Shown here piece by piece: positions 4,227-14,235 of a stretch of DNA of 32,668 nt. Where the stretch lies: contig SHYQ01000007.1 of the NCBI GenBank assembly GCA_009692765.1, positions 1 to 32,668 on the forward strand. Reading direction: 5' to 3'. The DNA comes from Dehalococcoidia bacterium. Lineage in GTDB: Bacteria; Chloroflexota; Dehalococcoidia; UBA2979. Every line of letters begins with the position of its first letter. Position 1 is the stretch's first letter. The position numbers and the translations under genes were made by a program. The notes beneath the pieces were generated by a model. That model was given only the letters and a program-made list of their open reading frames with translations, did not search any database and was not told the origin of the DNA.

Positions 4227-4313
4227 CGCCCCGACTAGCACCGCCGAGTGGCCGCGAGGCACGCAGCGCACGCGGCGCACGCGGCGCACAAGCGGCACAG
4301 AAGCACAGGTACG

Positions 4314-4364
4314 GAAACACGCAAGAAGAGGCCCCGCGCAGCGGGGCCTCTTCTTGCGTGTTTC
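4314..4364. terminator. Bidirectional terminator-like hairpin between convergent genes
   Basis: Perfect 24-bp stem GAAACACGCAAGAAGAGGCCCCGC / GCGGGGCCTCTTCTTGCGTGTTTC with 3-nt loop (gca), between converging CDSs. Confidence 0.85.
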
Positions 4365-4681
4365 GGTCGACTTCAGTTGGTTGCGACCGTGCGCATATTG
4401 CTTGCGCGTGAGATCGGAATCTCAATGCCCAGTCGTTGTGACTGGAGGATGATCTGTCGGCGGTTTAGCGCCGACGCGGTGCTCGGTCCAAGGGCGGAAC
4501 CCTCTAGGACTAACGAACGGCTCGTGTCCCCTCTCGGAAGCGTTCGGGTGGCTGCACTCCGCCTCCTTCCGCCTGATTCAGTATCGTCATTCTACTCCAG
4601 CCCGCCAGTGCTATGCGTGCGATTCGCGCAGGATCGCTCGGCAATTCGCGCAGGAACGCGCGCCGGTGTCGCGAGCGGCGA

Positions 4682-5842
4682 TCAGCGCGTGAGGCGGTAG
4701 CGAACGATGCGATCCGCTGGACCGTGCGCCCACACCTCGGGCGCAGCTTCGCCGCGCTCCTCCAGCACGTCGAGGTGGCCGATCACCTCCGTCAGTGCCT
4801 GCCCGATGCGGGCCGCGGGGAGCCGCGGGAACAGCCCGCGCACGATCTCGTAGGCGGTGACGCCGCCCGTCGTGTCGCTCGCCCGTTCGAGGTGGGCGCG
4901 TACCAGCCGCGAGCGGCGCGCGTGGTGCTCCGCGAACTGCGTGAACAGGCGCTGCGGGTCGTCCACCACCGCGCCGTGGCCGGGGAGGATGCGCCGCACG
5001 TCCAGCGCGCGGAGCGCCTGCACAGATCGCAGGAACGGCGGCAGCGAGGGCCAGCGCCCAACCTCGCCGTGGGCGGCCTCGGGTTCGGCTTCGCGGGTCG
5101 CCCGCGCATCGCGCGCGGTCGCGAGGCGTGGCGCGGCAGCGAGGTTCGTCGCGATCACGGGAAACTGGAGGCCGGGCGTGGGCACCGTCGTCGGCAGCAG
5201 CGTGTCACCCGAGCAGAGATCGCCCGCGCCATCCTCGTCGGCGACGAACACGACGAGGTTGCCCGGGGTGTGGCCCGGCGCGGCGATCAGGTGCAGCGTG
5301 CGCTCGTTCGCCAGCGCGCCATCGAGCGCAAAAGTGTCGCCGTCCTGCGCCGCCTCGAAGGCCTCCGTGGGGCACGCCTCCCAGCGCAGCGACCGCCCCG
5401 CGTGCCGCCCGCCGCGCGTCCACGCCGTGAGCGCAGTGACGATCGCGTCCAGCACGTCCGGCGGGCAGCCGTGCGAGCGCATCTCTTCGATGCGGCGCGC
5501 GCGGATCGCGTCGTACGCCGCGTGGCCCGCCGCGAGCATCGGCAGCGCCTCCGGCATCGCGACGATGCGCGCCCCCTCCGCCGCCCAGCGCGCCGCGAGT
5601 CCCGCGTGGTCGATGTGCTCGTGCGTGACCACCACCGCGCGCACGTCCCCCGGCGCGCACCCGATCGCGCGCGCCTGTTCCAGCAACACCTCCCACGCGG
5701 TCACGCAGTCCTCGCCAGTCCCGAAGCTCGTGTCGATCCCGGCGTCCACGAGCAGCCAGCCACCCTCGGCCAGCCGGAACGGCCAGATGTTGTTGTCGCC
5801 AAGGACGAGCGGGGTGGGGGGGAGTGCGGGCATGGGTGTCAT
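4682..5842 (-). CDS. MBL-fold metallo-hydrolase
   Basis: VVVTHEHIDHAGLAARW (HxHxDH-type), APGHTPGNLVVF, ILPGHG motifs; start chosen at MTPMPALPP. Confidence 0.9.
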   Translation of the reverse strand: MTPMPALPPTPLVLGDNNIWPFRLAEGGWLLVDAGIDTSFGTGEDCVTAWEVLLEQARAIGCAPGDVRAVVVTHEHIDHAGLAARWAAEGARIVAMPEALPMLAAGHAAYDAIRARRIEEMRSHGCPPDVLDAIVTALTAWTRGGRHAGRSLRWEACPTEAFEAAQDGDTFALDGALANERTLHLIAAPGHTPGNLVVFVADEDGAGDLCSGDTLLPTTVPTPGLQFPVIATNLAAAPRLATARDARATREAEPEAAHGEVGRWPSLPPFLRSVQALRALDVRRILPGHGAVVDDPQRLFTQFAEHHARRSRLVRAHLERASDTTGGVTAYEIVRGLFPRLPAARIGQALTEVIGHLDVLEERGEAAPEVWAHGPADRIVRYRLTR

Positions 5843-5894
5843 CGTAGAGATGTGGCGGCAAGCGTGATATGAGTCGCCGGGGAAACCCTCCCCC

Positions 5895-5962
5895 CGCCCT
5901 CTCCCGCTTCGCAGGCGAGGGGGCCAGAGTTCAGAACCCTCTCCTGCGGAGCGGGAGAGGGC
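5895..5962. repeat. Palindromic interspersed repeat, family 1, copy A
   Basis: 68 bp with 2 mismatches to 6386..6453; imperfect palindrome with GCCCTCTCCCGCTTCGC ... GCGGAGCGGGAGAGGGC arms. Confidence 0.9.
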
Positions 5963-5988
5963 AGGGTGAGGGTTGGATTGGAGCACTC

Positions 5989-6363
5989 ATGCCAGGCGCC
6001 GAGGAGGATCGAACCTGGCGAAACGGGACGCCACCATCGCGCCGGCAGACGCTTCGACGCACCGAGACCGACGCCGAGCGCGCGCTGTGGGCGCTGCTTC
6101 GTTCGCGGAGTCTCGATGGCCACAAGTTCAGGCGTCAGCACTCGGGGGGGCCGTACATCCTCGATTTCACCTGCGCGGAGGCGCACCTCGCGGTCGAGGT
6201 GGATGGCAGCCAGCACTACACCGCTGACGGGCTCGCCAGCGACGCTGCTCGCACCGCGTACCTTGAGGCAGCGGGCGTGCGCGTGCTGCGCTTCTCGAAC
6301 CGCGACGTGCTGACGAACGCTGCGGGCGTGCTGGAAGCGATCCTGCAGGCGCTTGGGGCGTAG
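5989..6363 (+). CDS. DUF559 domain (Vsr-like PD-(D/E)XK) endonuclease
   Basis: DFTCAEAHLAVEVDGSQH core typical of DUF559; ATG at 5989 avoids translating the upstream repeat. Confidence 0.85.
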   Translation: MPGAEEDRTWRNGTPPSRRQTLRRTETDAERALWALLRSRSLDGHKFRRQHSGGPYILDFTCAEAHLAVEVDGSQHYTADGLASDAARTAYLEAAGVRVLRFSNRDVLTNAAGVLEAILQALGA

Positions 6364-6385
6364 TTGGGGCCACCCTCACCCCCCC

Positions 6386-6453
6386 CGCCCTCTCCCGCTT
6401 CGCAGGCGAGGGGGCCAGAATTCAGAACCTTCTCCTGCGGAGCGGGAGAGGGC
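6386..6453. repeat. Palindromic interspersed repeat, family 1, copy B
   Basis: Direct-orientation copy of 5895..5962, 66/68 identical by eye. Confidence 0.9.
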
Positions 6454-6652
6454 GGGGGAGGGCTTCCCAACCACGCCGGCTACTTCGAGGATCCCGACTA
6501 CCACCTTTGGAGGTCGTGTGGAATCCGGCGTGGGATACGGAGGAGATTCGCCTGACGCGAGTTGATTCCATATCGATGGTGACGATAGGTTAGGACGATG
6601 GCTTGGCGGAACGAGCGCCACAGAACGCAAGAACGATCAACGAGGATGAATC

Positions 6653-7063
6653 ATGAAGAGGCACGCCTTAACAATCCTGGCGTACGTGGTGGCGACCTTT
6701 GTCACGCAGGCGATATCGCATTTCTCGATCGCTGCCGACCACTACGCAACGGTGACCTACATTCGCAAGGAGCCGATGTTTCAGTTCGGCTTGCTGGCCA
6801 TTCTCATTCAGGGCGGCGTCCTCTCCGTGCTGTACACGCGTTTCGTGGGCGGCCAGAGCACGATGAAGAGTGCGCTCGGCTTCTCCTAGCTCATGGGTGC
6901 GTTCTTGGTTTCCTACATCGCCCTCGACGAGGTGGCGAAGTACATGGTGCCCTCGACCGCGAGTTGGATCGCAGTTGAACTGGGGGCTGGACTGATCCAG
7001 TACACGGTCTTCGGCCTTCTTCTCGGCCTTGTCTATCGTGAACGAGCGACGCGCGGCGCATGA
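6653..7063 (+). pseudogene. Small multi-pass membrane protein interrupted by an in-frame TAG (6887-6889)
   Basis: MKRHALTILAYVV...SALGFS*LMGAFLVSYIALDEVAKYMVP...LVYRERATRGA; the same frame stays hydrophobic and protein-like after the TAG; GAGGA upstream of the ATG. Confidence 0.7.
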
Positions 7064-7108: not shown

Positions 7109-8368
7109 CTACTTCCCTGAAGCCGCGCGTTCCATGAGGTACCGGCGCAGCATGGTCAGCGCCTGCAGCACGATGCGGCGCTTCGACTGCTCGCGGCCCT
7201 GGAAGTAGCGGAACGTTGTGTACTCCATGCGCGTGCCGTCGAAGAGCGCGAGGTGCATCGTGCCGGAGGGCTGGCCCTCGATCGGCTCGGCACCGGCGAT
7301 GCCGGTGACTGCGAGGCCGAGGTCGGTGCCGAGGCGCTCGCGCGCGGCGGTCGCCATCGCCTCGGCGGTCTCGCGCGAGATCACGCCGTGGCGCGCGGGC
7401 ACCTCGGCGGGGACGCCCATCGCCACCTTCACCTCGGTCCAGTAGGTGACCAGGCTGCCCTTGAAGTAGTCGGACGCGCCCTCGATGTCCGTGATCGCGT
7501 CGGCGATCGCGCCGCCGCTCGCGCTCTCCATCAGCCCGAGCGTCAGCCCCTGGTCGCGCAGCATCCGCCCCACGCCCGAGGCGAGCGAATCGTCGTCGAT
7601 GCCCCAGATCGCGTGGCCGAGGATGCGCCGCGCCTGCTCCTCCACGGGGCGGATCAGCGCCCACGCCTCCTCGCGCGTGCGCGCCTTCGCAGCGATGCGC
7701 GCGCTCACGCCGTCCGCGCGCGCGTAGATGCCGATCGAGGGGTTGGTGCCGGCGAGCAGCGGCGACAGCATCTCGTCGATCGCCGCCTCGCCGATGCCGG
7801 TCGTCTTCAGCGTGCGCGCGACGAGGATGGAGTCGGCGCGGCGCTCCAGTTCCGGCGCCACCTCGGCGTCCCACATGTGGTGCATCTCCGCGGGCGGGCC
7901 GGGCATCACCGCGATCACCCGCTTCTCACCCGCGGGGCCGTCACGCTCCACCCACCAGCCGGGCGCGGTGCCTCGCGGGTTGGGGATGGCGCGCGCGCTG
8001 GGGATGAGCTTCGCCTGCTTGATGTTGCGCGCCGGCATCTCGCGCACCCCGCGCGCCTCGAACAGCGCGCGCAGCACGCGCTCCTGATCAGCGTCGACGA
8101 ACATCGCCTCGCCCAGCATCTCCGCGATCGTCTCGCGCGTGATGTCGTCCTCGGTGGGGCCGAGGCCGCCCGTGCAGAAGATGTACTCGGAGCGCTCCCA
8201 CGCGCGCGCGAACGCCTCGCGCAGGCGGCCGGGGTTGTCGCCCACCTGCGTCACCCACAGCAGGTCGATGCCGTACTCGGGCAGCGCGCTCGCGATGTAT
8301 GCCGCGTTGGTGTCCGTGATCTCACCGAACATGATCTCGGTGCCGATCGAAAGAATCTCCGCGCGCAT
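7109..8368 (-). CDS. cinA: CinA: competence/damage-inducible protein / nicotinamide-nucleotide amidase
   Basis: N-terminal MoaB-like domain (MRAEILSIGTEIMFGEITDTN, FCTGGLGPTEDD) and C-terminal PncC-like domain (VTGIAGAEP). Confidence 0.92.
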   Translation of the reverse strand: MRAEILSIGTEIMFGEITDTNAAYIASALPEYGIDLLWVTQVGDNPGRLREAFARAWERSEYIFCTGGLGPTEDDITRETIAEMLGEAMFVDADQERVLRALFEARGVREMPARNIKQAKLIPSARAIPNPRGTAPGWWVERDGPAGEKRVIAVMPGPPAEMHHMWDAEVAPELERRADSILVARTLKTTGIGEAAIDEMLSPLLAGTNPSIGIYARADGVSARIAAKARTREEAWALIRPVEEQARRILGHAIWGIDDDSLASGVGRMLRDQGLTLGLMESASGGAIADAITDIEGASDYFKGSLVTYWTEVKVAMGVPAEVPARHGVISRETAEAMATAARERLGTDLGLAVTGIAGAEPIEGQPSGTMHLALFDGTRMEYTTFRYFQGREQSKRRIVLQALTMLRRYLMERAASGK

Positions 8369-8385
8369 TGTTCTACCCCTCTGTG

Positions 8386-8409
8386 CCCCGCACCGCGTTG
8401 GGTGCGGGG
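8386..8409. other. Hairpin in the cinA/moxR divergent intergenic region
   Basis: ccccgcacc-gcgttg-ggtgcgggg, 9-bp perfect stem. Confidence 0.45.
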
Positions 8410-8519
8410 GCAGGATAGCAGCGCAGCGTGCCGGGCCAGCGGTCCAGCACGGCGCGCCGCCGCCTCTGCTATCCTCGGCCTCCCACGAGCAGCGGAGGTC
8501 CCCTCCGGCGGAGGTCAGC

Positions 8520-9514: not shown

Positions 9515-9811
9515 GGGTGACTGTGTGGGACGGCCCACCCCTGCCCCTGCTATCCCCCCGGATGGAGAACAGCGCTTCGCGCGGGGCGCGGGAGGGGTTC
9601 TGATTCTTGTGGGGGCTACGCCCCCACTGGCCTCCGACTGCGAGACGGGCGCGCCGGGCTCGATTCTTCCTCGCACTTGTGTGGGCAGGGCCCCGTTGGG
9701 GGTGCAACCTCCAACGGATTCATCTCCCTTCCCGCGCCCCGCGCGGAGCGCTGTTCTGCTTCGGGGACAGGAATGGGGCAGGGGGATGGGCCGTCCCCCG
9801 CTGTCGCCAAC
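9515..9811. repeat. Composite inverted repeat, family 2 (two ~115-bp arms around a ~65-bp centre)
   Basis: Left arm ~9515-9628 matches reverse complement of ~9693-9811 (shared GGGACGGCCCA, AGAACAGCGCT-CGCGCGGGGCGCGGGA, small ggggg hairpins). Confidence 0.85.
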
Positions 9812-13136: not shown

Positions 13137-13196
13137 TGCCCGTCCCTACGCGCAGGGAAGGGGCAGGGGGATGGGCCGCCCCCGGCCGTCACCAAC
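13137..13196. repeat. Palindromic interspersed repeat, family 2, truncated copy C
   Basis: cgcagggaaggggcagggggatgggccgcccccggccgtcacc matches 14122..14163 and the 9693..9811 arm. Confidence 0.8.
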
Positions 13197-13999: not shown

Positions 14000-14082
14000 C
14001 GTGCGAGTCTAGCGGTACTGAGCATGGACACTGGTGACGCATCAGGCGCCTGTGCGCCTCGCGCCTGAATCGGCTGGGCGGA

Positions 14083-14163
14083 GTTGGGGGTGTCACCCCC
14101 GACTGATTCATCCCCCTTCCCGCGCAGGGAAGGGGGCAGGGGATGGGCCGTCCTCCGCTGTCA
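14083..14163. repeat. Palindromic interspersed repeat, family 2, copy D
   Basis: gttgggggtgtcacccccgactgattcatcccccttcccgcgcagggaagggggcaggggatgggccgtcctccgctgtca; contains a perfect 10-bp stem CCCCCTTCCC/GGGAAGGGGG (14112-14136). Confidence 0.85.
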
Positions 14164-14235
14164 TGTGCTTGCGGGCGGTCACGCCGGAGACGTAGCCTTG
14201 GGGCGCGTTCGGCGGGGCGCGCACGGAGGCTGCGC

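Follow-up and report, generated by a model that had tools for sequence, protein, structure and literature searches.

The window (the whole stretch of 32,668 nucleotides that was analysed, contig C46) belongs to a 1.26-Mb MAG that is 75% complete and spread over 67 contigs. It contains a small DUF559 nuclease gene (5989-6363, + strand) that encodes 124 aa, matches PF04480 at 4.9e-34, and has its invariant E, D, ExD, H, and D residues all intact. The likely start is the ATG at 5989, which has GGAG upstream, and the stop is at 6361-6363; a 164-aa ORF beginning at 5869 was rejected as the gene, as its frame just runs through the left palindrome. An AlphaFold2 model of the protein (pLDDT 87.5) has as its Foldseek neighbours NGO0050 of N. 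gonorrhoeae (3hrl), the EDxHD homing endonuclease I-Bth0305I (TM 0.74), and Vsr (1cw0; TM 0.72), and the DUF559 sequence itself distantly matches EDxHD homing endonucleases (I-Bth0305I). Based on this model, the predicted fold is of the EDxHD homing/Vsr type and not the HUH fold of RAYTs.

The gene is flanked on the left by a metallo-beta-lactamase-fold (MBL) gene (4682-5830, - strand) and on the right by a CinA-like gene (7109-8410, - strand); these two bound the insertion interval, and the gene order is kept in the related loci compared. The C-terminal remnant of a VOC (glyoxalase-like) gene (6462-6545, + strand) abuts, or is fused to, the right palindrome; in the congeners compared with it (G014, G015, and G016), intact VOC genes adjoin the DUF559 cassette. 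Farther right, 6650-7063 (+ strand) holds a small membrane-protein-like frame (MKRHALTILAYVVATFVTQ...) with a single in-frame TAG at about 6888, either a broken gene or a sequencing error. The window also contains a near-perfect 27-bp inverted repeat with a 3-nt loop (4311-4367; GAAGAGGCCCCGC), which is terminator-like; next to the same gene, G014 and G015 have counterparts. Intergenic repeats of 44 nt (three copies) and 69 nt (two copies) occur within 9557-9766, 9669-9811, 13153-13196, and 14057-14168, and a 70-nt inverted repeat lies near 9.6-9.8 kb; all of these are unrelated to the CCCTC palindromes.

Those palindromes form two units, one on each side of the DUF559 gene. The left unit (full inverted repeat 5884-5974) runs from the tag CCCTCCCCC through two short hairpins, inverted around a 15-nt spacer, to the gene-facing tag GGGTGAGGG; its 38-nt arms are 89% complementary, and its ssDNA MFE is -39.9 kcal/mol (z -7.6). 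The right unit (6374-6461; full inverted repeat about 6379-6461) begins with the gene-facing tag CCCTCACCC, continues with two hairpins as in the left unit, and ends with the outer tag GGGGGAGGG (MFE -39.5; z -8.2). In each unit the hairpin sequences are CCCTCTCCCGC...GCGAGGG and CCCTCTCC...GGAGAGGG, with the outer tags beyond. The initial annotation had placed the DUF559 gene between near-identical hairpin palindromes, and this is what we find: in direct register the units share 96% identity over 77 nt (5890-5966 and 6381-6457), and as ssDNA both fold at -37 to -43 kcal/mol, 7-9 s.d. under dinucleotide shuffles, on both strands. Its description of a 68-mer repeated in direct orientation is right as to the register, but each 68-mer is itself composed of two inverted short hairpins, the 15-nt spacer, and outer tags, so that direct versus inverted is a weak distinction.

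The genome-wide count of the palindrome that the same annotation had proposed gave about 50 sites in the MAG, which has one DUF559 gene; the chance of a palindrome lying within 150 bp on both sides of that gene is therefore well below 1%. The GC-N3-GC stem top of the window copies is common to 22 of the 30 perfect hairpins listed. RAYT involvement was rejected, since the MAG has no match to the Y1 transposase (PF01797). Known RNA families were also rejected, the only matches being chance hairpin matches to eukaryotic miRNA models below the gathering score, and PADLOC gave no match for anti-phage defence. Across 44 same-family genomes, CCCTC-type palindromes with differing stems directly flank almost every strong DUF559 match, and the palindrome is present in 13 of 13 genomes that have a strong DUF559 match versus 11 of 31 that do not (p 5e-5). 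Three genomes of one genus (G034, G036, and G037) have 71-129 palindrome copies, with DUF559 not detected, and their congener G035 has a DUF559 gene; either these copies are orphan repeats after nuclease loss or the assemblies are incomplete.

Palindromes bracket DUF559 genes in many phyla

A wide sample of 80 DUF559 loci from many phyla was gathered with a query built from flanked genes (an alignment of the window subfamily). At these loci the half-motif CCCTCNCCC is ~70-fold enriched at distances of up to 150 bp from the DUF559 gene, with a density of 13-14 per kb on either side versus ~0.2 per kb between 0.5 and 10 kb away; intergenic DNA far from the gene has 0.9 per kb. The palindromes are thus concentrated near DUF559 genes and not evenly scattered, and orthologues in relatives do carry them, so that neither of the two outcomes that the initial annotation had named as refuting the pairing was observed. 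Two-sided bracketing was found at 45 of 74 DUF559 genes versus 1 of 673 control ORFs on the same contigs (Fisher 3e-51), and a clear two-sided bracket is absent at about a third of DUF559 genes.

Because the first query came from flanked genes, a second sample not selected for palindromes, consisting of every other PF04480 match in 249 Pseudomonadota genomes, was drawn as a check on query bias. The enrichment persists in this sample (7.6-8.1 versus ~0.2 half-motifs per kb). The negative controls of the PF04480 scan should not be over-read, given that an E. coli control genome gave no match though K-12 has ycjD. A sequence-agnostic test found inverted repeats between the flanks of 46 of 64 matches scoring at least 80 bits and of none of 10 weaker ones, which are mostly domain fragments or DUF559-like stretches inside other proteins. 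The same architecture occurs in isolate genomes of Azospirillum, Rhodopseudomonas, and Cardiobacterium, and Enterobacter and E. coli K-12 (at ycjD) have a one-sided version of it.

Many DUF559 matches without the CCCTC motif carry other clade-specific palindromes. Such palindromes, apparently further families of the same arrangement, were seen at loci L168, L180-L182, and L199-L222; among them are a rhizobial type, ATCTCCCCC..GGGGGAGAT, with a separate outer tag, and a sphingomonad type, CCTCCCCGAG..CTCGGGGAGG. An IMG/VR contig filed as viral (L055, 3208-3700) has a DUF559 gene bracketed by the same palindromes in two stem variants.

The bracket has a polarity. Upstream of the gene, the tag GGGTGAGGG lies between hairpin and gene, and downstream its complement takes that place, so that the tags face the gene on both sides; the motif nearest the gene is G-type in 55 of 61 cases upstream and C-type in 51 of 56 downstream. 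The bracket is also specific to the enzyme it surrounds. The upstream and downstream palindromes of one locus are more alike than those of different loci, and palindrome type clusters on the DUF559 tree (24 changes versus 35.2 when shuffled; 0 of 200). The most telling control comes from inside single genomes: G012 and G015 each hold an A-clade and a B-clade DUF559 gene, each with matching A or B flanks, and host background therefore cannot explain the match of type to clade. Does the specificity extend to copies dispersed elsewhere in the genome? With copies at the locus excluded, type D is plentiful only in genomes that have a D-flanked DUF559 gene (p 2e-5), and dispersal of type B follows the flank type of the resident DUF559 gene (p 9e-4). 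Type A is equally common where the sampled DUF559 gene has other flanks (p 0.72) and, being near-universal in the sample, is uninformative. Distant dispersed copies in the 80 contigs have no clear excess of inverted pairs; the window units are themselves inverted doublets. In total, these observations leave hardly any doubt that DUF559 genes and the palindromes are associated, and that the association is specific.

A portable cassette and its empty sites

When DUF559 loci at different sites are compared, the similarity of their DNA usually stops at the palindromes, which sets the size of the cassette at ~0.5-0.7 kb. No target-site duplication was identified. In the order MBL - site - CinA, which is conserved, DUF559 and palindromes are present in G000, G014, G015, and G016, and the interval is empty of both in G012, G004, G035, and G040. 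Enterobacter ENT03 has palindromes and DUF559 at a site where two close relatives have neither and a third, G096, has a palindrome pair alone. The empty sites that the initial annotation had proposed to look for in relatives thus exist, six without a palindrome and one with the palindrome alone, so that most lack gene and palindromes together.

Its suggestion of recent movement did not hold up. Three congeners have DUF559 and palindromes in the same MBL-CinA interval, and the window cassette is thus of long standing in the genus. Congeners differ in the side of a VOC gene on which the cassette lies, and the VOC remnant abuts the right palindrome of the window; hence, the cassette must have shifted its place, arrived on two occasions, or undergone a rearrangement. 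The two palindromes of the window are near-identical to each other and unlike those at orthologous loci, a pattern that suggests homogenisation of palindromes within the genome. That the copies agree at 96% is thus more suggestive of local homogenisation or duplication than of recent arrival.

Likeness to known systems

The arrangement fits RAYT/REP systems, to which the initial annotation had likened it, in its anatomy: inverted bracketing with tags facing in, dispersed copies, co-variation of nuclease and palindrome, and empty sites. In both systems a nuclease gene is bracketed by palindromes dispersed in the same genome, a short conserved tag marks one palindrome end, enzyme and palindrome co-vary, presence is patchy, and repeats at times occur without the enzyme (PMC3116915, PMC3733652). 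The parts differ. The enzyme here is PF04480, EDxHD/Vsr-like, whereas RAYT is a Y1 HUH tyrosine transposase (PF01797); the gene-facing tag is GGGTGAGGG / CCCTCACCC or variants, whereas that of REP is GTAG (or CGTC); and the stem is the mirror-symmetric triplex motif CCCTCTCCC/GGGAGAGGG.

The stem leads to a second comparison. The study that describes TM intrastrand-triplex or PIT elements ascribes to them neither a known function nor an associated mobility gene; its authors sought mobility genes beside the E. coli copies and reported none (PMC4666352). Their pattern, CCCTCNCCC-N3-6-GGGNGAGGG-N3-GGGNGAGGG, fits the DUF559 flanks at many of the 80 loci (PMC4666352). The copies in the window, whose stems are longer and imperfect, are variants and, strictly, only a partial match; in addition, the published elements were described without an enzyme, and the variant stems described here (types B, C, D, and others) widen the family. 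K-12 has 23 published TM elements, 10 of them in inverted pairs (PMC4666352), and one TM element lies ~180 bp downstream of ycjD. YcjD is named a DUF559 protein by NCBIfam, a match that falls below the model's own cut-off and so shows family, not orthology. A DNA search of 5,426 E. coli genomes did not find a DUF559 gene resembling the one in Enterobacter ENT03. E. coli genomes with ycjD have a median of 19 TM-like places versus 6 in those without (p 4e-10), but this correlation follows phylogroup and is weak evidence, given that the counts in ycjD-negative genomes are split between 12-16 and 3-7, and that no more than 11 and 14 places occur in two divergent genomes that do have the gene.

The enzyme itself resembles two characterised nucleases. 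I-Bth0305I shares the catalytic-domain fold; it is intron-encoded and has extra DNA-binding regions (PMC3943268), whereas the DUF559 protein here is barely more than a nuclease domain, is not in an intron, and is bracketed by repeats. Vsr shares the fold as well, and VsrA of Caulobacter carries DUF559 (PMC12907096); here, by contrast, no methylase link was seen, and Vsr biology lacks palindromic bracketing.

Explanations for the pairing

We propose that DUF559 and its flanking palindromes form one functional REPtron-like pair, in which a nuclease unrelated to RAYT acts on and propagates the palindromes. We put the probability of this reading at roughly two in three. It builds on bracketing, tag orientation, type specificity, dispersal, cassette portability, and empty sites, all of which are observed; that the nuclease would recognise and cut the palindromes, and that cutting would drive their propagation, we infer. 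In this model, the compact EDxHD/Vsr-like nuclease would recognise its own palindrome type, that is, the hairpin plus a GGGTGAGGG-type tag, probably when replication exposes the palindrome as a folded or triplex single strand, and would nick or cut it. Strand transfer is not among the activities of a PD-(D/E)XK-like nuclease, and the copying step must therefore come from the host. We speculate that host replication and repair would copy the palindrome to new places, either by itself or as two copies with the nuclease gene enclosed, and would also homogenise the copies within a genome; recognition of a triplex or hairpin is equally speculative.

The main functional rivals to the cognate-enzyme reading are homing into the repeat and Vsr-type repair. 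In the former, a free-standing EDxHD homing endonuclease would recognise the palindrome and use it as its landing site: DUF559 would cut palindromes dispersed in the genome, the gene would be copied into the break via flanking palindrome homology, and something else would spread the palindromes themselves. This would explain why the palindromes around each gene are of the type found in its own genome, the closest characterised fold is that of a homing endonuclease, and the lone pair in G096 is the kind of site it predicts. We nonetheless consider it unlikely, since it requires a second, unseen mover for the palindromes, most empty sites (the four MBL-CinA intervals and the two in Enterobacter) lack the palindrome too, and the rarer palindrome types appear dispersed mainly alongside their nuclease. 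More doubtful still is a role in genome maintenance, in which a Vsr-like repair or hairpin-processing nuclease resolves palindromes or repairs mismatches at methylated sites and mobilises nothing. Besides the fold, this idea can draw on Caulobacter VsrA (CCNA_02930), a DUF559 protein that is responsible for the SOS response in cells lacking the methylase ScmA and that a 2026 paper proposes as a Vsr-type mismatch repair enzyme (PMC12907096). But a repair enzyme needs neither an inverted bracket with tags facing in nor a clade-specific palindrome type, and patchy presence, empty sites, and a portable cassette are unlike a housekeeping gene.

Could the palindromes instead be terminators or insulators that merely gather beside a small laterally transferred gene? 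They are strong hairpins, and every E. coli copy lies between genes (PMC4666352), yet in earlier work cited in that paper PIT elements had neither terminator nor promoter activity. Passive association also leaves tag orientation and the match of type to clade unexplained; it is made unlikely by the near-total absence of bracketing at control ORFs and by the genomes that hold two clades, and we give it very little weight. Chance or an assembly artefact, which the fragmentary and incomplete MAG might have invited, is already refuted by recurrence of the architecture in the isolate genomes, including the one-sided cases of Enterobacter and K-12.

If the cognate-enzyme reading is extended to the whole family, DUF559 proteins would be the dedicated enzymes of a second, independent, non-HUH class of bacterial palindrome-propagating system, one that may recognise an intrastrand triplex; we see the arguments for and against this broader claim as about evenly balanced. 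No earlier report of a link between DUF559 and palindromes was found in a search of 5.4 million open-access papers. The link joins two orphans, widespread nucleases whose function is not settled and widespread palindromic repeats that lack an enzyme, and suggests that DUF559 (YcjD in E. coli) is the enzyme so far missing from a widespread repeat family of unexplained origin. The second class, if real, would explain PIT/TM repeats in E. coli and in hundreds of other species, and also many clade-specific intergenic palindromes. Since E. coli K-12 holds both ycjD and the published elements, the link is testable there; if it is causal, bacteria have a second, chemically different way of running REP-like repeats.
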